Source: a virus
DNA: 37,111 nucleotides
IMG/VR virus record: IMGVR_UViG_3300031576_000186
Span: 1 to 37,111 of that record
Reading direction: 5' to 3' (one strand)
Shown here: positions 4,373 through 30,060 of the stretch, piece after piece
How positions within the stretch are numbered: position 1 is the first letter of the stretch
How the letters are laid out: every line of letters begins with the position of its first letter
Translations under genes and position numbers: made by a program
The notes under the pieces: model-generated
Told to the model about the DNA's origin: nothing
Seen by the model: only the letters and a program-made list of their open reading frames with translations
The model's database searches: none

Positions 4373-6247
4373 TTAGCCCACCAATCCGGCGGGCTCCAGG
4401 ACTACCTGGTCTTTCTTGACCAAACGATCAATTCCAGCCCTGATATCCTTGAGCACTGTTAGGGACTTGTCCACGCGGTCCAGCCCCTCGGCGCCACGCT
4501 TGTCAGCGGCCGCGAACCCCTCCGGCTCCCCAGAACCAAAAGACTTTCCCGCGCGCATGGCTGCCAGTCGGTCTCGGAACTCAGTAATGCGGCCAAGAGA
4601 TTCAGCGGAACCGAAAAGCGTGGCGTCAACCTTATCAGCCTCTTTCTTGAAACCCGCCGCGAACGCTTCGCCCGAGCTGACACCGGCGAGGCCAGCCGCT
4701 TTCTCCATGCCTGTATCATCATACAGCGGATCTAAATTGGTGAAAGCTTTCCCAATGAGAGTGTCGCGTTCTTTCTCCAGGACTTTGAGCTGGTCCTGGA
4801 TGGCTTTAATACTCTTTGCCCCCTTGTCGTGAGCAGTTTCAAGTGCTTTAGCACGTGACTTTTCTATCTCCTTTAGACTATGCTCCAGATCACTATTTAT
4901 TATGGCGTCTAGCTCCGCCTTCCGCTCGGCGGAGATGAGTTTCAGCATGCGTCGCAGATCGGTTATCCCCATTGCGATGTTGGTAGTAGCTTTTTGCCAT
5001 ATAATCCTGAGAGAAAAGCCAAGATCAACCCAAGTTTCCTTGAGCGTGAATACGAATCCTATCCACAACTCTTTTATAGACGCAATTCCTTTAGCAAACT
5101 CCAACTTAATCTGGGCCCATAATATCTGAGCGGCAAGCACTAAGTCTCCTGCCTTTAGCGCGTCTTGCATCCCCTGGATGGCTGGCTGAACACTCTCGGA
5201 TAGGGAAGCCCACTGCTTGGTAAACCATTGAATTGCCGCGCCTCCAGTCTTTGACCAGCCAAGCGTGCCAAGACCCATGGCGATAATAGCCGCTGTTAGT
5301 AAGCCGAGAGGAGTTAGAAGCAAACCCACCGCGCTAAAAGCAAGCCCAAACAAGGCAATTAAAGGAGACAGAGCCAGGTTAAGAATCAGTATAGCCGGCC
5401 CAAGGAGTACAGCACCAGCGGTTACCGCTGTCACGGACGTGATTAGCTTCTTCGATTTCTCGTCCAGGTTCCGCACCAAGAATACAGCTTCCTTTAACCA
5501 AGCCACTAAGGGTCGTATTCCTTCCGCGACGAAGGCGCCAAAATCCTCTAAAAGATTGCCCAAATCCCGGCGAAGGATCTTTAGTTGGCCGCTTGAAGAT
5601 TTAGCCACGGCTTCAGCCACGTAAAGTGTTTTGGATACTAACCTTTGTGCTTCTGCTAGCCGCTTCGACTCGTCCTTGATTGCGGCGAGGCTGCGGAAGT
5701 AGCGAGTTAGCATAGGACTAACCAGCCCTTGCTCAAGAGCGGCTGTCATGCGGATAAACGACTCGGCGGAAGAGTCGAATGCCTCTCCCAACCCTATTGC
5801 GTTACGCACAGCATTCTTGGCCTTCTCTCCAGTGGTTCCCAGCGTTTCCGCAAGTTGAATAAGTTTCAAGATGGCGTCATCTTCAGCGGTCGTTGTTCCC
5901 TCCATCTGCCGAGCGAATTCCCGATATTCTCGGGTAAGTTTTTCCACGTCGCGCCTATTGGCTTCCAAAACGGCGCTCAATCGGATGCCAATTACCTCCG
6001 CCTCCTGGAAGTTACGCAAGGATTGGCGGATGACTCCGGCCGCTCCAAGAGCGGCTAACGCGGTAAAGGCGGACTGGGCAAAATTGCGAACGCCTCCAGT
6101 AAATCCCTCGATCCGCTTGGCCGTGGCCTCCAAGGCGCGAGCCGTGGTAATAGTGGCTTGTTGGCTTTGCTGCAGAGCTTTCATGTACCCCGTAACGTCG
6201 CCAACCAAACGGACAACCAGGGTTTCCAGTTCGGTTTCAGTGGCCAC
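4373..6247 (-). CDS. Tail tape measure protein
   Basis: 624 residues from GTG at 6247. The N-terminus reads VATETELETLVVRLVGDV, then GYMKALQQSQQA, as in tape measure proteins. Helical, Ala/Gln/Lys-rich sequence follows. A hydrophobic block at about residues 270-335 (AVTAGAVLLGPAILILNLAL and following) would span or insert into membrane. The C-terminal third is coiled-coil-like (SLKEIEKSRAKALETAHDKG). Tape measure proteins set tail length and line the tail tube; this one is short, which fits a short or medium siphovirus tail. The longer start at 6289 (TTG) would add 14 residues read from a hairpin repeat. I prefer GTG 6247, which overlaps the chaperone stop by 11 bp. Confidence 0.85.
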   Translation of the reverse strand: MATETELETLVVRLVGDVTGYMKALQQSQQATITTARALEATAKRIEGFTGGVRNFAQSAFTALAALGAAGVIRQSLRNFQEAEVIGIRLSAVLEANRRDVEKLTREYREFARQMEGTTTAEDDAILKLIQLAETLGTTGEKAKNAVRNAIGLGEAFDSSAESFIRMTAALEQGLVSPMLTRYFRSLAAIKDESKRLAEAQRLVSKTLYVAEAVAKSSSGQLKILRRDLGNLLEDFGAFVAEGIRPLVAWLKEAVFLVRNLDEKSKKLITSVTAVTAGAVLLGPAILILNLALSPLIALFGLAFSAVGLLLTPLGLLTAAIIAMGLGTLGWSKTGGAAIQWFTKQWASLSESVQPAIQGMQDALKAGDLVLAAQILWAQIKLEFAKGIASIKELWIGFVFTLKETWVDLGFSLRIIWQKATTNIAMGITDLRRMLKLISAERKAELDAIINSDLEHSLKEIEKSRAKALETAHDKGAKSIKAIQDQLKVLEKERDTLIGKAFTNLDPLYDDTGMEKAAGLAGVSSGEAFAAGFKKEADKVDATLFGSAESLGRITEFRDRLAAMRAGKSFGSGEPEGFAAADKRGAEGLDRVDKSLTVLKDIRAGIDRLVKKDQVVLEPAGLVG

Positions 6248-7183
6248 TATCCACTTCTCCAACTCCAGCCTTGGAAATGCTGGGCTCAACTCCGGCGTTT
6301 ATTTGTACTACCTTAACTGGCATCGTCATCCGGCCTAGCCAGCGTGCCTTGCTCAAGGCGGCGGCTTGCCGCTGGGTGGTTAGCTGGGCCGGCTGGAGAG
6401 GTTTCACTTCCATTTCCCGCTTCCTGAATTGCAGCTCTTGCATGGCCAGTGTCACTTTGCGAGGGCTTTTAACACATCCCTGTTGCACGCGTTGAGCCAC
6501 GCGCATAAGGTAGTGATCCGTCCGGTCCGGGATATTCCATTGCATGTCCAGCCATTCTTGCCAAGCCTCGTATTGCCGGTGCGTGATTGGACCGGGCCAA
6601 TCAAACAGCTCATGTAGGTGTTTACCTAGCTCATGCGCTAAGCGGAAGTAACCGCTGTAGCGCTTGGCAAGTTTTTTACGTTTGGCTCACTAGTACCAGA
6701 GCGGATTTTAGCCAAACTATCCTGCAGCTCTTCGATCCGGTTTTCCAGAGCTTCAGCCGTATCCGGAGTTTGTAAGTCGCTGATCTTGTCCAGCTCACTC
6801 AGTAGACGGTTGATAACACGGTGAGGCCAGCCACGAACCGCGTCTCCGGCTGACTCCCCAGTGCCGTTGTACACGCAAGCGCAAAGGAGAGCCAGGCGCG
6901 CTTCATGTGCTTTTGTGAGCTGTTCATTGTCAAACGAAGCCTGAACCTTCCCGGCCTCTATTTTTACCGATTTGAGCTGGGAAGAGCGGAAGGCGATAAT
7001 GGCTGGCTCGGAAGCCTCGTGAAGAACATAGCTTTTGCCCCCGAATTTGAACGGGACTTTGATCTCTTCCAAGCTATCGAGACTATATTCCACGGCGTTG
7101 CTCCTAAAATAAACAGGGAAAATTTGAGCCCAGCCTTTCCAGGGCCGGAGTTTGAGGGCGATTGAACCAGGCTGATTCACCAT
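6237..7183 (-). CDS. Tail assembly chaperone, G-T type -1 frameshift product
   Basis: Predicted fusion of the 171 residues read before a slippery A AAA AAC (6677-6671) with 144 residues of the -1 frame, giving about 315 residues. The -1 frame is open from CTT (6671-6669) to TGA (6237-6239). It encodes LAKRYSGYFRLAHELG, WPGPITHRQYEAWQEWLD and MQWNIPDRTDHYLM, which look like a T-type extension. In lambda and many siphoviruses the G and GT proteins coat the tape measure during tail assembly and are made in a fixed ratio by this slip. Position between major tail protein and tape measure fits exactly. The last residues (EPSISKAG) are read from a hairpin repeat, so the natural C-terminus may have been extended. 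Confidence 0.8.
6266..6289 (+). repeat. Hairpin repeat copy at chaperone/tape measure junction
   Basis: Copy of the 24-bp element, with one stem mismatch (AATGCTG for AAGGCTG). It encodes the last residues of the chaperone fusion (EPSISKAG) and, in another frame, the optional N-terminal extension of the tape measure protein (MSPAFPRLELEK). Confidence 0.85.
6635..6677 (-). promoter_or_regulatory. Programmed -1 ribosomal frameshift signal
   Basis: Slippery A AAA AAC in the zero frame (6677-6671) is followed by a 7-nt spacer (6670-6664) and a hairpin. The hairpin has GCGCTA (6663-6658) pairing with TAGCGC (6640-6635), one bulged C, AGCGG (6656-6652) pairing with CCGCT (6645-6641), and the loop TTACTT. 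Heptamer, spacer and stem match the established layout of bacterial and phage -1 frameshift sites. Confidence 0.85.
6638..7183 (-). CDS. Tail assembly chaperone, G-type zero-frame product
   Basis: 181 residues ending at TAG (6638-6640). The N-terminal part (WAQIFPVYFRSNAVEYSLDS) is beta-rich. The middle (HEARLALLCACVYNGTGESA) and the C-terminal helical segment (ALENRIEELQDSLAKIRSGT) fit a small chaperone. The gene begins 3 bp after the major tail protein stop, so the two are probably translated together. The slippery heptamer lies 10 codons before its stop, and the stop itself is buried in the stimulatory hairpin. Identification rests on gene order plus the frameshift signal, since these proteins are poorly conserved. 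Confidence 0.8.
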   Translation of the reverse strand: MVNQPGSIALKLRPWKGWAQIFPVYFRSNAVEYSLDSLEEIKVPFKFGGKSYVLHEASEPAIIAFRSSQLKSVKIEAGKVQASFDNEQLTKAHEARLALLCACVYNGTGESAGDAVRGWPHRVINRLLSELDKISDLQTPDTAEALENRIEELQDSLAKIRSGTSEPNVKNLPSATAVTSA

Positions 7184-7186
7184 GAC

Positions 7187-7666
7187 TTAGGTACCAGCCA
7201 CCGACGTGAGTACCGGCGCGGCCTCTACTCGGTTTACCGGATCGAAGTTGGTTGGAGTGATAGTCACGGTTGCTTCCGGCTGCTCTCCCTCGCTCAATTC
7301 GGATGGCTCGAACGTTCGTAGATATCCGTAAAAGTCCAGCTTGCTACTATCGGGGAAGTGCACCGTGATTGACCCCTCCTGGTTAATTAAATTTGTAAGG
7401 ATATCGTTGTAGACGTTCGGATCGTAAGCAACCGTGAGGGAGCTCTCCGTAAGCGTGACAAGCGCGCGTGAAGCCATTGTTCGGTAGATAAGATTATGCA
7501 TCGTCGTTGTTTCGATGGCTTCACCCCCATCCAATCCTGGAGGACTAACCGACTTTTCCCAAAAGCTGACATTCGAATCACGCGCGAAGGCAATCTTCGT
7601 CGAGAACCCGTCGTCTAGTTTAATTCCGACCGGGGTAACGCGGACAGTTGAAGCTGGCGCGGCCAT
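7187..7666 (-). CDS. Major tail (tube) protein
   Basis: 159 residues. It opens with VRVTPVGIKLDDGFSTKIAF, followed by VSFWEKSVSPPGLDGGEAIE, then TTTMHNLIYRT (about residues 53-63), a run typical of phage tail tube proteins. The C-terminal half alternates beta strands (EGSITVHFPDSSKLDFYGYL, ATVTITPTNFDP). It is encoded immediately upstream of the frameshifting chaperone and the tape measure, which is the invariant order in siphoviruses. It polymerises as stacked rings around the tape measure. Ends with TAA at 7187-7189. Confidence 0.88.
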   Translation of the reverse strand: MAAPASTVRVTPVGIKLDDGFSTKIAFARDSNVSFWEKSVSPPGLDGGEAIETTTMHNLIYRTMASRALVTLTESSLTVAYDPNVYNDILTNLINQEGSITVHFPDSSKLDFYGYLRTFEPSELSEGEQPEATVTITPTNFDPVNRVEAAPVLTSVAGT

Positions 7667-7965: not shown

Positions 7966-8781
7966 CTACAAACTCCTCAAGCTCACCAATACGTTAACCG
8001 TGAATAAGCGCCGTTTTGACGTTGGCGTATCCGTTCCTAAGGCCAAAACTCCGCTAGTGCGTGAAACCGCGTGGACGAGGTAGGCGGTGCCAGCGATAGT
8101 TACCGACTCTTGATAAACCTCTTGATCCAAAGCCAAGGCCAAGGCCCGTGCCTTGACGTACCCAACGCCATGCGTGGCCCCACGCACGCGTACTTGCACT
8201 CCATGGTGTTCTTGCTGCTCCCCATCAGTTTGTGTTCTGCCATGCCCTCGGCGCTCCGTGTCGTAACAGGTAATGCAGTTATCCGGTAAGTCAGGCTCGG
8301 CGCCAGCGTAAATCGGCCAAACAGTTCCCGGAGGATCAACCCCATGACCAAGAGCAATGAGTACCCGCCTAATAATATCCGCCGGCGAGTGCGCCAGCGT
8401 GCCGGAAGGCGTGCCAACCCGGAAGTAAACCAGGTTGCTCACGGCGCTGCCGCCGGCAGTACTACTCGTTACCCTAACCCAATAAAGCCCGTCCGCCAGT
8501 GCCGGCGTAATAGTAACGGCACCGTCGCCAGCACGCGACCCATCAGTTGTCCAAGTAAATGACCCCAAACCGGTTTGCGCCGATAGAGTCTCGACAGTGT
8601 TCGTGCCGCCAGCCGTCGAGCCAGCAATAGTAACCACCGTTCCAGCACTGTTAACGGAGATAGTTGGTTGCGCTGGGGGAGAACCACCACCACCACCAGT
8701 ACTGTTGCCAAACGTTCGGCAGAAAAAAGTCCTAGGCAAGGTGCTGTTCCCCAATCCCGGCCTTAGAAATGCTGTGATCAA
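7966..8781 (-). CDS. Tail terminator / minor capsid-type protein with N-terminal Ig-like domain
   Basis: 271 residues in three parts. Residues 1-8 (MITAFLRP) are read from a hairpin repeat whose TTG supplies the start. Residues about 30-125 form a Ser/Thr/Gly-rich beta domain after GGGGGSPPAQP (TISVNSAGTVVTIAGST, DGLYWVRVTSSTAGGS), resembling Ig-like decorations of phage tail proteins. From about residue 130 (SPADIIRRVLIALGHG) comes a tail-completion-like domain with HHGVQVRVRGATHGVGYVKA and LFTVNVLVSLRSL. That part and its location just upstream of the major tail protein support a terminator role, capping the tail for joining to the head. The Ig-like fusion is unusual for this small protein. 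Confidence 0.7.
   Translation of the reverse strand: MITAFLRPGLGNSTLPRTFFCRTFGNSTGGGGGSPPAQPTISVNSAGTVVTIAGSTAGGTNTVETLSAQTGLGSFTWTTDGSRAGDGAVTITPALADGLYWVRVTSSTAGGSAVSNLVYFRVGTPSGTLAHSPADIIRRVLIALGHGVDPPGTVWPIYAGAEPDLPDNCITCYDTERRGHGRTQTDGEQQEHHGVQVRVRGATHGVGYVKARALALALDQEVYQESVTIAGTAYLVHAVSRTSGVLALGTDTPTSKRRLFTVNVLVSLRSL
8758..8781 (+). repeat. Hairpin repeat copy supplying a start codon
   Basis: Diverged copy (tail GTGATCAA). On the minus strand its first three bases are the TTG at which the tail terminator frame begins (8781). Confidence 0.8.
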
Positions 8782-8795
8782 TAAGAGCGGACATG

Positions 8796-12750: not shown

Positions 12751-12840
12751 AGCGGGAATTCCTTAATAGGAATTACCTAAAGCGGGAATTCCTTAATAGG
12801 AATTACCTAAAGCGGGAATTCCTTAATAGGAATTACCTAG
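12751..12840. repeat. Three tandem copies of a 30-bp unit
   Basis: Units 12751-12780, 12781-12810 and 12811-12840 are identical apart from the last base. Each contains GGAATTCC and, 10 bp on, GGAATTACC, so each unit is partly self-complementary. The last copy also supplies the TAG stop of the upstream connector gene (12837-12839). Confidence 0.95.
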
Positions 12841-20197: not shown

Positions 20198-20659
20198 TTA
20201 GAAACAGGTCGCAATGCGCCGGACCAAGGCGTACAGCTCTACAGGGATGTCCATGCGTTTCAGATACCGGTAGAGCGTGGGACCCACCACCCGCCACTCC
20301 AATTGCCCATGCCCACAGCCAAGAGGCGGCACGGCAAGTGAAGTGATGTCCCATTCCTGGTAGTGAGACAACAAGTAGGCGAGCCCCTCTTCAATGTCCT
20401 GCAGGCGCGACACGGACCGCCAATGGTTCTTGGTTGGGAAGTTGAGAACCCACGGAGGAACCAAGCTTCGGTAGAGGTAAGGCCGCCCCAGCCGGACCTG
20501 ACCAGCGTTGCACCGAGCGACGTAGTCCTCGTGCATTTCAGGGAAGCGATTCTTGAACTCAAGCGCCACGCCCTTGCCCATCACACCGACGCAGTTGACG
20601 GTGTTAACAAGCGTCTGCGCGTCTGAGTCAAACAGGTTGCCGATCTTCACGGTCACCAT
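20198..20659 (-). CDS. darG: DarG-type macro domain protein, truncated
   Basis: 153 residues with an intact macro domain. Visible are VKIGNLFDSDAQTLVNTVNC, VGVMGKGVALEFKNRFPEMH, YLYRSLVPPWVLNFPTKNHW, then ITSLAVPPLGCGHGQLEWRV. These are the ADP-ribose binding loops and the wording of DarG antitoxins, which remove ADP-ribose from thymine bases added by DarT. Family similarity stops after PVELYAL, where the frame runs into RRIATCF and a stop, so the C-terminal domain is detached. No darT gene is visible nearby. The sequence looks more GC-rich than the phage core, which suggests capture from a host. A working orphan de-ADP-ribosylase is possible. Confidence 0.85.
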   Translation of the reverse strand: MVTVKIGNLFDSDAQTLVNTVNCVGVMGKGVALEFKNRFPEMHEDYVARCNAGQVRLGRPYLYRSLVPPWVLNFPTKNHWRSVSRLQDIEEGLAYLLSHYQEWDITSLAVPPLGCGHGQLEWRVVGPTLYRYLKRMDIPVELYALVRRIATCF

Positions 20660-21725: not shown

Positions 21726-22730
21726 TTAAGGAACAATTGGTACACGACGAAACTCAATGTTGAGCCCAGCCTTTTCAAGGCCAAGAGTAAATTTATCAGC
21801 CAAGCTAGTAAATTTATCCGCTAAGCCAAGCGCTGCCGACTCCAGGCTATCAAGCCGCTTTTCCACGCCGGCCAAATCCACGGTCGAGCCGTCACTACCA
21901 CGTGGCCCGGCTGGTCCAGCTAAACCTTGCGGCCCAGCTGAACCACGGACCGATCCCAGCGTCGCGATTATTTTCTCCAGACCATCAATCTTCAATCGCA
22001 ATTGGCTCACTTCGGCCAAAATCCGCGCGTCCGGCAGCGCCGGCGCTGGAGCAGTTGGCGCGGGAGCCACCGGCGCCACCGGCGCTAATGGTGCTGGCAT
22101 GCCAGGCTGAACAGGTATACCTGGCGGCTTCCGGCCTTGGCCGGGCCGGCGGAAAAGATGGCAGGTTTGATCCACGAATGTCTGAATATCCGCCAACCCA
22201 ACGAAGCTGGTATTATTCGACGAACCCCAAACAACTCCACAAAGAGTATTGTCAGACCTAAACACTCCACTACCACTATCGCCACTTTGCACGCGCGCCG
22301 AGAACCCATGCACCAAAGCGCCACGATTATCGCGGCCACCAACACCCTGATAGTACCCAGCACGGACCACGGGTCCACGCCCAAGCGGATAGCCCACCTG
22401 GGTGAGAGCTTCCCCACGCACTAGGGGTTCAGTCGCCAATGGTATAAATGGAGTGGTGGAATCCGCGTTAATCGCGACCGCCGCAAGATCAGCTTTATCA
22501 GCGCGGCCAAGAAAGGCGCCGTAAGCACGCTGGCCACTTGGTAAAGTCACAAGGATAGTGTGAATCCCGTCGTTAAACAAGTGCCGGCACGTTAGTACCA
22601 CGGCCGCGCCTTGTTCCTGAGAATAAGCGATCACCGTGCCGCTGCCACCACTCGCGCCATTGGATATTTTCACGCTGGCGGCGACTATCGATGGGTCCGC
22701 TCGCGACTGTGCCGGGACAACCTGCCCCAC
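21726..22730 (-). CDS. Trypsin-like serine protease with collagen-like and coiled-coil tail
   Basis: 334 residues from GTG at 22730. The chymotrypsin-like domain shows the His block VVLTCRHLF (about residue 50), the Asp block RADKADLAAVAI (about 85) and the Ser block VQSGDSGSGVF (about 154). After a Pro/Ala linker comes a coiled-coil (EVSQLRLKIDGLEKIIATLG), then collagen-like GXY triplets (GPQGLAGPAGPRGSDGS), and a second helical stretch DLAGVEKRLDSLESAALG. LEKAGLNIE near the end is read from a hairpin repeat. Collagen plus coiled coil suggests a trimer. Upstream, in the same frame but beyond an in-frame TGA (22743-22745), lies a clear signal peptide, so export is likely in an ancestral form. 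A lysis or envelope-degrading role is inference. Confidence 0.78.
   Translation of the reverse strand: MGQVVPAQSRADPSIVAASVKISNGASGGSGTVIAYSQEQGAAVVLTCRHLFNDGIHTILVTLPSGQRAYGAFLGRADKADLAAVAINADSTTPFIPLATEPLVRGEALTQVGYPLGRGPVVRAGYYQGVGGRDNRGALVHGFSARVQSGDSGSGVFRSDNTLCGVVWGSSNNTSFVGLADIQTFVDQTCHLFRRPGQGRKPPGIPVQPGMPAPLAPVAPVAPAPTAPAPALPDARILAEVSQLRLKIDGLEKIIATLGSVRGSAGPQGLAGPAGPRGSDGSTVDLAGVEKRLDSLESAALGLADKFTSLADKFTLGLEKAGLNIEFRRVPIVP
21760..21783 (-). repeat. Hairpin repeat copy inside protease gene
   Basis: Minus-orientation copy (tail TTGAGCC at 21760-21766), stem with loop TTC in the plus reading. It is translated in-frame as LEKAGLN close to the protease C-terminus. Confidence 0.9.
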
Positions 22731-26904: not shown

Positions 26905-27130
26905 CCTCTACCCTTTCCGCTCCGGTCCTCTCAACTCCTGTCCTCTCCACTCCAGCCTCTCAGGTCCGCTCCGTTCCATTCCACTCCCCGCATCTCCGAA
27001 TGGAACGGAGAGAAGGCTAGAATGGAAAGGCCGTTCCAATCCTACCAATCCGGTCCTCTCCTCTCCCACTCTAGCCTCTCCATTCCAATCTCGTCCCATC
27101 CTCTCATCTCCATTCCGCTCTAGCCAGTCT
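26905..27130 (-). repeat. Degenerate 5-bp array 1 (GGANN on coding strand)
   Basis: Plus strand is a run of TCCNN-like pentamers. An internal segment (about 26998-27033) has the opposite orientation, with GGA on the plus strand. The array ends at the portal ATG, where it provides the purine-rich ribosome site. Confidence 0.85.
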
Positions 27131-27210
27131 TTCCCTTCAGATTTTTATACTATTAGTCTATCCCTGAACAGGACTGCCGAGCGAGCTGCTGCGCGCAATC
27201 ATTGTGCAAT

Positions 27211-27354
27211 CTATCCAGCTGGGGGTGTCGGTAAAGTGGGATCGATCTTTCCACCCGACCGTTCCAGCAGCCTGACAAGCCGGCGGAAAAACTCAGGCGC
27301 GCTTACTTGCTTCGTGAGTAACGGTGCCGTTGTACTAAGGTTGCGATAATCCAT
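27211..27354 (-). CDS. Small hypothetical protein between two pentamer arrays
   Basis: 47 residues from ATG at 27354: MDYRNLSTTAPLLTKQVSAP, then EFFRRLVRLLERSGGKIDPT and LPTPPAG, ending at TAG (27211-27213). No domain. Support comes from context: in this block the pentamer arrays fill the gaps between genes, and this frame sits exactly between arrays 1 and 2. It has a weak ribosome site. The 80 bases between its stop and array 1 show nothing. Confidence 0.4.
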   Translation of the reverse strand: MDYRNLSTTAPLLTKQVSAPEFFRRLVRLLERSGGKIDPTLPTPPAG

Positions 27355-27374
27355 TGCTTCAACACTCTAGGTAA

Positions 27375-27470
27375 ATATACCTCTCCAGTCCACTCCCATC
27401 CACTCCCCTTCTCTCCACTCCAGCCTCTCCACTCTCGTCCCATCCCATCCAGTCCTCTCCTTTCCCATCT
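27375..27470 (-). repeat. Degenerate 5-bp array 2
   Basis: About 95 bases of TCCNN-like pentamers on the plus strand, filling the gap below the small Cys protein gene. A short TCC-rich patch also lies at about 27705-27748, between that gene and terL. Confidence 0.85.
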
Positions 27471-27748: not shown

Positions 27749-29281
27749 CTAAAACGCGCTTGCCAAGCTCTGGCTCGTCTTATGCTCCATCGCGTAAAGG
27801 GCAAGAACCAAGGCGTCCGCCTCGTCTGGCGAGTGGCCTATCAGCTCGGTCAACGTCTTGCGCGTATCACTCTCGCCACGCTTACTTTTTGGCGGGAGAG
27901 TAATCCGTCCTTCCGAATCGTACCACCTCGGAAACTTGCCGAGCTGCCAAAGTAGCTCCGTGTACTCCCTTGGTATCGCGAACTTCAGCGCGTTCGTTGG
28001 GTTAAGCCTCCGGCTCAGGTTGCCATACAACTCAGCTCGACGATTACGGTAAGCATAGCTCTCTTCGTACAGGCCTATTCGCTCTTCCAGGCTTGTAACC
28101 GTCCCTCTACGCTTTGGGTCAGCGCTAACCGTCTCGCCAAAGGCCAAGGTCCCCACGTTGTAACCCTGGCTTCGCAGTCTATCAGCGTGCTCTTTACCAC
28201 CTCCACCACGGTCGAAGAGCACCTTTTCTGCTGGCACCCCATGAGCAAACATGAAAGCCAAAGCCTCACCGGTCACCACGCTCGTATCAGGAGTCTGCCT
28301 GCTCACTAACTCCAGCAATCCATATTCGTCCACGGCGGCCATCGCCGTCTTATCTCCTCCCTCAGCCGGGTCAATTCCTATAGCCCTGGCTTGCCGCTTA
28401 CGTCCGTTCATCTCGTCTGCCAGCTGCCCGGCACGGCTCAACCACTCCGGTGGAAACAAGAGTACCTCTACTCCCTTGTAAAACTCCGCATCCAAGCCAA
28501 CACACTGCCTACGGGCATCCCAATGCTTCCTACGATACTGATAACCAAGAACACCGTTCTCCCAACGGATAACTCCTGGTACAAGTATTTCGTTCGTAGG
28601 AGTCTTACCAATAGCAAGCTGCTTGAGAGCCAGCTTAACGCTAGGACTCTTCTCGGCATTAAGCTTGATGATCTTGCGGATATACCCATCTCCATTTTCC
28701 CTCTTCAGATCTCCTGCTTCTATCGCTTTGCGGAAGAAGTTCTGGCAGTCATTTGGATTACCAAAAAAGAAAAACCGCTTTGCCCAACCTTGTCCAGCTG
28801 AATACACCAAATCTGGTATTGCGCTACTCTCATCTCCCACCAAGAGCGTGAACTCCGCGTGATGCCCAGAGAGTCCTTCACCCGTCTCAGACACCATCGC
28901 CTTTAGGTAGTTTGCCGGGTTCTTGCTCTCTCTCTCGTCCGCCCTACGAATTTCCTGGTGCATAAGTATGAGAGGGCCACCACGGTCAGCCACCAGCGGG
29001 TACTTACTGCCCATTACCAACCGGCCAATCTCCGCCCACAAGACTCCAAGATGCTCTCCCTTAACGGACGTGGTTATAATTCGGCATCCCACTCCAAGCT
29101 TAATGCAGCTCAAGAAAATCGTAAGTACTAAGTACGCGGCCGTGAAGTCTTTTCCCATCATATTCGCGCTAGGCACGTACGTTTCATTGTTCTCCAGAAC
29201 CGAGTAGCAGATTTCGCGCTGTTCTTTGTACAACTCAATTCCAGGCCACAGAGTATTACCAAGCCTGATTGGGTCCAGCAC
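27749..29281 (-). CDS. terL: Terminase large subunit
   Basis: 510 residues from GTG at 29281. N-terminal ATPase: ELYKEQREICYSVLENNETY, then a Walker A-like PSANMMGKDFTAAYL (about residue 35), the stretch CRIITTSVKGEHLGVLWAEI, and a Walker B-like FTLLVGDESSAIP (about 149). C-terminal RNase H-like nuclease: AIGIDPAEGGDKTAMAAVDE (about 304), KVLFDRGGGGKEHADRLRSQ, and HSPDEADALVLALYAM near the end, giving the acidic residues of the nuclease site. TerL cuts concatemers and drives DNA into the head through the portal. The GTG start is preceded by GGAGAGGAAAG, which is the edge of a pentamer array. An upstream in-frame extension is only array and HTH-gene shadow. Confidence 0.9.
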   Translation of the reverse strand: MLDPIRLGNTLWPGIELYKEQREICYSVLENNETYVPSANMMGKDFTAAYLVLTIFLSCIKLGVGCRIITTSVKGEHLGVLWAEIGRLVMGSKYPLVADRGGPLILMHQEIRRADERESKNPANYLKAMVSETGEGLSGHHAEFTLLVGDESSAIPDLVYSAGQGWAKRFFFFGNPNDCQNFFRKAIEAGDLKRENGDGYIRKIIKLNAEKSPSVKLALKQLAIGKTPTNEILVPGVIRWENGVLGYQYRRKHWDARRQCVGLDAEFYKGVEVLLFPPEWLSRAGQLADEMNGRKRQARAIGIDPAEGGDKTAMAAVDEYGLLELVSRQTPDTSVVTGEALAFMFAHGVPAEKVLFDRGGGGKEHADRLRSQGYNVGTLAFGETVSADPKRRGTVTSLEERIGLYEESYAYRNRRAELYGNLSRRLNPTNALKFAIPREYTELLWQLGKFPRWYDSEGRITLPPKSKRGESDTRKTLTELIGHSPDEADALVLALYAMEHKTSQSLASAF

Positions 29282-29352
29282 CTTTCCTCTCCATTCCAAT
29301 CCAGCCTTTCCTGTCCTGTCCACTCCTTCATCCGGTCCGGTCCAGCCCTTCC
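29282..29352 (-). repeat. Degenerate 5-bp array 3
   Basis: TCCNN-like pentamers (plus strand) fill the gap between the HTH gene and terL; on the coding strand the final GGAGAGGAAAG serves as the terL ribosome site. Confidence 0.85.
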
Positions 29353-29385
29353 TGAATGGATTTGCTAATCTGCAAAGGACATTTG

Positions 29386-29643
29386 TCAGCGCCGAAAATC
29401 CACTGGCATTGGCGGCTCTGGTGGTGCTTCGTCGAGAAAGAAAACGCCCAAGGGTCGTTTGTAGGTATGAGCCAGTTTTCGCAGCTGGGAGATAGTGGGC
29501 TTGGATCTTCCAGATTCCCACTCTTGCAGACGGAGAGGTTTGATTTGACTTTTCCGGGCCGAATCCTCCACGCTGAACCCGGCGCTCTCGCGCGCCCAAA
29601 CGAGCAATTCTGGTTTCACCAGGGCTTCGATCTGGGTCGCCAT
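29386..29643 (-). CDS. Orphan HTH (XRE) domain of an HTH-ImmA/IrrE type protein
   Basis: 85 residues: MATQIEALVKPELLVWARES, AGFSVEDSARKSQIKPLRLQ, EWESGRSKPTISQLRKLAHT, YKRPLGVFFLDEAPPEPPMP and VDFRR. This is the XRE helix-turn-helix followed by the linker RPLGVFFLDEAPPEP that precedes the metallopeptidase half in HTH-ImmA/IrrE proteins. Here the frame ends at TGA (29386-29388) right after DFRR, and no HEXXH domain follows. It is either a truncated relic or a phage-shortened repressor acting as a decoy or autoregulator. It sits between arrays 3 and 4, in the middle of the packaging operon. Confidence 0.75.
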   Translation of the reverse strand: MATQIEALVKPELLVWARESAGFSVEDSARKSQIKPLRLQEWESGRSKPTISQLRKLAHTYKRPLGVFFLDEAPPEPPMPVDFRR

Positions 29644-29689
29644 TCGATCCGGCTCCGAGCTTAGCGTACCTTGAAGAACGCGGCAACCG

Positions 29690-30060
29690 TGCCTCTCCTA
29701 TCCGCTCCGCTCCCATCCACTCCCGTCCAGTCCCGTCCTGTCCATTCCTGTCCGCCCCTAGCCATTCCCGCCCATCCGGTCCGGTCCGGTCCAGTCCAGT
29801 CCAATCCCGTCCTCTCCTGTCCCTCCACTCCCGTCCTGTCCCTTCCACTCCCATCCTGTCCACTCCGGTCCTCTCCAATCCCATCCAGCCCCTCCACTCC
29901 TGTCCTATCCCTTCCGCTCCCCTCCTATCCTCTCCCCTCCAATCCGCTCCAGCCCCTCCTCTCCAGTCCACTCCCGTCCCGTCCTTTCCGCTCCCATCTA
30001 ATCCCCTCCCTTCCTCTCCACTTCCCTCAAGCCCTTCCGGTCCGGTTAAGTCCAATCCCT
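29690..30060 (-). repeat. Degenerate 5-bp array 4, the longest
   Basis: About 370 bases, over 70 TCCNN pentamers on the plus strand with little interruption (for example GGTCCGGTCCGGTCCAGTCC). The third-to-fifth positions vary freely while TCC is kept. It lies between the small terminase-like gene and the HTH gene. Frames through it (TGLDWTG-like) are not genes. Confidence 0.95.

Follow-up and report, generated by a model that had tools for sequence, protein, structure and literature searches.

A probable programmed −1 frameshift in the tail-assembly chaperone gene of an uncultivated siphovirus-like phage

We analyzed a 37,111-nucleotide stretch of viral DNA (IMG/VR record IMGVR_UViG_3300031576_000186, positions 1 to 37,111; hereafter the window) and found on its minus strand a locus that is, with high confidence, the gene for the tail-assembly chaperones G and GT in a siphovirus-like phage, with programmed −1 ribosomal frameshifting as its mode of expression. 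The frameshift reading, which an earlier inspection of the letters (the original prediction) had put forward, is supported by the sequence elements themselves, by the conservation of the slippery heptamer, its phase and its position across relatives, by the predicted fold of G, by the protein families that relatives of T match, by the coding-type GC pattern of the T frame and by gene order. The principle of a lambda-type −1 frameshift in a tail chaperone gene is already established, and the window locus adds another example.

Reading frames and slip signal

Across the heptamer, the ORF that ends at 6638 is read as GTA AAA AAC, which places A AAA AAC in the X XXY YYZ phase (Table 1). The zero-frame heptamer was present where the original prediction had located it, on the minus strand, a detail that the prediction had left unstated; the 7-nt spacer and the zero-frame stop within the stem were likewise recovered as described. 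Two consecutive stops, TAG TGA at 6692–6687, close the −1 frame, which opens at 6686, 9 nt 5′ of the heptamer, and runs to TGA 6239–6237. In the window sequence, no ATG, GTG or TTG occurs in this frame before ATG 6545, so that the long open −1 frame claimed to reach the tape-measure gene indeed exists, spanning 144 codons without a usable start. Codon-position GC in the T frame (0.66/0.40/0.62) was about the same as in G and in the tape-measure gene.

A bare AAAAAAC is not rare, with 5 copies observed against 6.6 expected over the whole window, and ORFs of at least 100 aa in the window held 33 in-phase XXX-WWW-N heptamers. AAAAAAC at 6677–6671 was the only one of these 33 to lie in a plausible gene, with a zero-frame stop close by and a −1 frame that stays open for more than 100 codons.

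The hairpin downstream of the heptamer was also borne out, with the 11-bp stem, single bulge and 6-nt loop originally described. Its arms, GCGCTA(c)AGCGG and CCGCTTAGCGC, enclose the loop TTACTT, the 3′ arm pairing as CCGCT-TAGCGC. The folding energy of the 78-nt RNA was −26.7 kcal/mol, which corresponds to a z of −3.4 relative to dinucleotide shuffles, the 60 nt downstream of the heptamer gave a fold z of −4.1, and the stem was more stable than all 300 of 300 synonymous recodings of T (z −3.6). This stable structure begins 7 nt past the slippery site, inside the 5–9 nt range used as a criterion for hairpin-stimulated −1 signals. An Rfam search of the window returned no matches, and a Shine-Dalgarno-like stimulator 5′ of the window slip site did not rise above the gene background; such a stimulator was seen in some relatives (L010, L023 and L008).

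Table 1 Features of the predicted frameshift locus and its surroundings in the window
Feature	Position	Strand	Basis or remark
Slippery heptamer A AAA AAC	6677–6671	minus	In phase; kept in most distinct relatives
Spacer TTGCCAA, 7 nt	6670–6664	minus	
Downstream hairpin, 6+5 bp, one bulged C, 6-nt loop	6663–6635	minus	Folding z-scores
Zero-frame stop TAG	6640–6638	minus	In the 3′ arm of the hairpin
Shine-Dalgarno-like AGGAG	7101–7105	minus	7-nt spacing to GTG 7093
G ORF, zero frame, 151 aa	6638–7093	minus	Likely start GTG 7093; HK97 chaperone fold match
T domain, −1 frame, 144 aa post-shift	6237–6671	minus	Relatives match PF06223 and phrog_337
Tape-measure protein gene	4373–6247	minus	PHROG tape measure families, E 1.7e-8
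Probable major tail protein gene, 5′ of G	7187–7666	minus	Position and size
Dispersed repeat copies	6257–6290, 7124–7150, 7791, 8752–8782, 13251, 13788, 13895		
Dispersed repeat copies, further	21769, 22912, 24099, 25235, 31182, 33580, 33689, 34096		

Conservation among IMG/VR relatives

Searching IMG/VR with window T yielded three relatives, and their alignment extended these to 22 loci, of which 19 were distinct after three near-duplicates were dropped (20 with the window locus). Because the second search relied on RTDHYLM and HRQYxxW as patterns, the selection of loci was independent of the heptamer. Another round with a deeper T alignment returned the same contigs again, an IMG/VR search with window G alone found no relatives, and no relatives were found in the GTDB species genomes. 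Close relatives of the window locus were not found, and the conservation counts accordingly describe distant ones, their T proteins being only 25–44% identical to window T; the constancy of the heptamer is therefore not due to recent inheritance alone.

In all 22 loci, the G ORF overlaps the T ORF, with T in the −1 frame. AAAAAAC was in phase in 14 of the 19 distinct relatives (15 of 20 counting the window), and a canonical in-phase heptamer of any kind was present in 17 of 19 (18 of 20), the three others being GGGAAAC in L008 and L012 and CCCTTTG in L015. The distance from heptamer to the invariant DHYLM motif was 138–153 nt in most loci, even though protein identity is just 25–45%; where AAAAAAC is kept, it is nearly always 141–150 nt. 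L003 and L004 have no canonical heptamer at the expected place; L004 carries the atypical GGGGGAG exactly 141 nt 5′ of DHYLM, a distance matching that in five other loci. Loss of the heptamer from loci that keep both frames had been set beforehand as the test of the prediction, and the result of this test, run on distant relatives only, came out in its favor, with 17 of 19 canonical and one atypical. When codons were shuffled within the G genes, AAAAAAC in the overlap was expected in 0.06 of 20 genes, against 15 observed; the associated probability is formally too small because the loci are related.

This in-phase conservation, far above chance, weighs against reading T as a separate gene with its own start, reached by internal initiation or by coupling to the G stop, with the heptamer merely incidental. 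A T-frame ATG does exist at 6545, and in L003 the G stop shares bases with an ATG of the T frame (TGATG, 1924). However, ATG 6545 falls within the conserved T domain, past the T[HN]RQYxxW motif, and initiation there would lose 42 residues, some of them conserved, from the heptamer onward; moreover, L006 and L007 contain no T-frame start codon upstream of DHYLM. We regard a separately initiated T as very improbable.

Even smaller probabilities attach to two other explanations. The homopolymer at the site, which reaches seven A's in L010, could suggest that T is reached via transcriptional slippage on the A6 run and not by the ribosome. Six A's are short for RNA polymerase slippage, the GGGAAAC and CCCTTTG found at the same place in relatives suit tandem tRNA re-pairing and not polymerase slippage, and the window has a positioned downstream hairpin; we accordingly give polymerase slippage hardly any weight. 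Similarly, the window is a single metagenomic contig and A-runs are prone to errors, so the G/T split might be a sequencing or assembly error, or the mark of a decayed gene, with G and T really forming one frame or being dead. About 19 independent contigs, which show the identical −1 arrangement at the corresponding position, refute this idea, and the G and T frames both resemble constrained coding sequence, leaving error or decay with a negligible likelihood. Ribosomal frameshifting at the heptamer is the reading we retain.

The downstream structure was less uniform. Folds were strong in six of the 20 loci, namely the window, L002, L007, L009, L010 and L013, where the z against synonymous recodings ranged from −2.8 to −5.1; in the remaining loci they were unremarkable. 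Hence, the "complete cassette" of the original prediction holds for the window locus, and the heptamer alone is the feature of the family.

Two variants were seen among the relatives. In L002, L007, L019 and L020, the zero-frame stop abuts the heptamer (AAAAAAC TAG or TAA), which means that the A site receives a stop codon as soon as the slippery codons have passed. In L003 (1771–1924), the expected place is without a canonical slip site and the G stop is overlapped by an ATG of the T frame (TGATG, 1924), a possible shift from frameshifting to coupled initiation, although T similarity there extends 5′ of this ATG. The only in-phase candidate in L003, AAAGGGC, was rejected as a slip site, since it lies 231 nt before DHYLM, compared with 138–168 nt elsewhere.

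Products of the locus and neighboring genes

By its sequence context, GTG 7093 is most likely the start of G. It follows an AGGAG, and many relatives have AAGGAG or AGGAG ahead of the aligned G start; ATG 7183, the start assumed originally, lacks a Shine-Dalgarno sequence and would add 30 residues that are missing from most relatives. With GTG 7093 as the start, G would comprise 151 aa and GT about 285 aa, which amends the 181 and approximately 315 residues first proposed.

The junction between the two parts also needed revision. According to the established model of simultaneous slippage, the A-site tRNA-Asn adds its residue ahead of the shift. The predicted junction under this standard model is therefore VKN-LAKR, with V-K-N-L-A-K across it, and not the VKK-LAKR for which the original prediction proposed a search by mass spectrometry; K instead of N at this point would mean P-site-only slippage. 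Tryptic digestion of GT would leave NLAK as the only junction-spanning product, so the proteomic test as proposed would probably fail for technical reasons. Digestion with Glu-C is predicted to give a usable junction peptide of 33 residues, LQDSLAKIRSGTSEPNVKNLAKRYSGYFRLAHE, with N at the junction.

We then modelled G with AlphaFold from a 20-row alignment (pLDDT 84) and compared the model by Foldseek. Among PDB entries, 2OB9, the HK97 tail chaperone, matched best, with a probability of 1.00, 16% identity, a TM of 0.60 on the target and a modest E-value of 7e-3, and matches in BFVD included many tail assembly chaperones together with the "Tail assembly protein GT" of phage N15. In this model, G adopts the HK97 tail-chaperone fold; relative to HK97 gp13 (2OB9), it has an extra C-terminal helix and a linker that bears the slip site. 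Window G and T, each searched alone, matched no informative Pfam or PHROG family, and for T the structural model led to no informative match by fold. Among the 20 aligned members, PF06223 (Phage_tail_T) was matched by 5 (best 1.8e-5) and the tail protein family phrog_337 by 12 (best 1.8e-8), window T itself having a match to neither. Searches by tblastn against a 50,697-record collection of isolate phages found no match for window T or the tape measure, and those with the G and T of the relatives found none in isolate phages either.

The genes lie in the order 7187–7666, G, T and tape measure, the second of the two overlapping frames being −1 and without its own start. The tape-measure gene likely starts at GTG 6247, to judge from a GGAG at 9-nt spacing, and this start overlaps the T stop codon. 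The product of 7187–7666 had no match in a PHROG search; a gene of about 150–170 aa occupies its place in nearly all relatives, and its position and size make it the probable major tail protein gene.

A dispersed repeat of 25–30 nt, built around the palindrome GCCTTttcAAGGC (TTGAGCCCAGCCTTTTCAAGGCC...), is present in both orientations, in approximately 15 copies or more. Many of the copies are intergenic; one lies just 5′ of G and another where T meets the tape-measure gene. In IMG/VR contigs, an exact 22-nt form of this repeat had no match. A separate intergenic array at 12751–12840 consists of three tandem copies of AGCGGGAATTCCTTAATAGGAATTACCTAA, 30 nt each and internally palindromic.

Elsewhere in the window, long degenerate TCC-rich tracts (TCC[AG][CG]TCC..., in units of about 5/10 nt) at 26912–27465 and 29281–30053 flank ORF 27749–30055 and run into its 5′ part, giving it a G/D-rich N-terminus that is probably non-native. 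This ORF is terminase-like by position only and had no match in a Pfam search; within its repeat-flanked region, another frame (29386–29643, minus strand) encodes an 85-aa HTH_3 (XRE-type) regulator. Further minus-strand genes encode a macro-domain protein (20198–20659; PF01661, 2.8e-16) and, at 21726–22730, a protein in which a Trypsin_2 protease (PF13365) precedes a collagen-like GPxG stretch.

Known systems and proposed mechanism

The archetype of such genes is lambda G/GT (PMC5009743). Like lambda gpG/gpGT and the class of Xu, Hendrix and Duda, the window locus has its genes arranged as probable major tail protein, G, T and tape measure, a −1 shift near the end of G, and a small C-terminal T domain that has no start of its own and whose counterparts in some relatives match Phage_tail_T. 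Unlike lambda, the window uses A_AAA_AAC instead of G_GGA_AAG, its zero-frame stop lies 30 nt past the heptamer, inside the hairpin, and its G and T are too diverged for a direct family match.

Two of the heptamers found among our loci have precedents in tail chaperone genes of other, different phages. AAAAAAC, the heptamer of the window and most relatives, has been named as the slip site in phiCbK-like Caulobacter phages, with GGGAAAC, as in L008 and L012, in Colossus (PMC3556154). AAAAAAC is also the named site in Acinetobacter phage Loki (PMC5313236), and the same pair recurs in the haloarchaeal HCTV-2 (AAAAAAC) and HCTV-1 (GGGAAAC) (PMC5009743). In E. coli constructs, A_AAA_AAC was much less slippery than A_AAA_AAG (PMC5009743), and E. 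coli may not resemble the host here; a weaker A_AAA_AAC would be in keeping with a low ratio of GT to G, with a hairpin being present or with a host whose tRNAs differ.

From these elements, we infer slippage at the site, and its efficiency, as follows. The majority of ribosomes would translate G and end at TAG 6640–6638, while a minority, paused at the heptamer by the hairpin, would have tRNA-Lys and tRNA-Asn slip one base back from AAA-AAC and re-pair on AAA-AAA, then read on in the T frame to yield a G-T protein of about 285 aa. The presumed chaperone function in the window phage would parallel that in lambda: by analogy, many G molecules would coat the tape-measure protein, a few GT molecules would recruit the major tail protein via T, and both G and GT would depart from the tail afterwards.

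For annotation, the locus offers a correction, as gene callers would report a truncated G and a mis-started T; the phages affected are uncultivated ones, and neither their chaperone nor their tape measure has a match in the collection of isolate phages. Somewhat speculatively, and at rather less than even probability, the loci may constitute a branch of tail chaperones that is undescribed and confined to environmental sequences, with A_AAA_AAC almost fixed and the hairpin gained and lost between lineages. If so, they would provide a natural set in which to ask what sets the G:GT ratio at a constant slip site. A near-constant slip site with varying downstream structure among relatives could help to separate the contributions of heptamer and hairpin.
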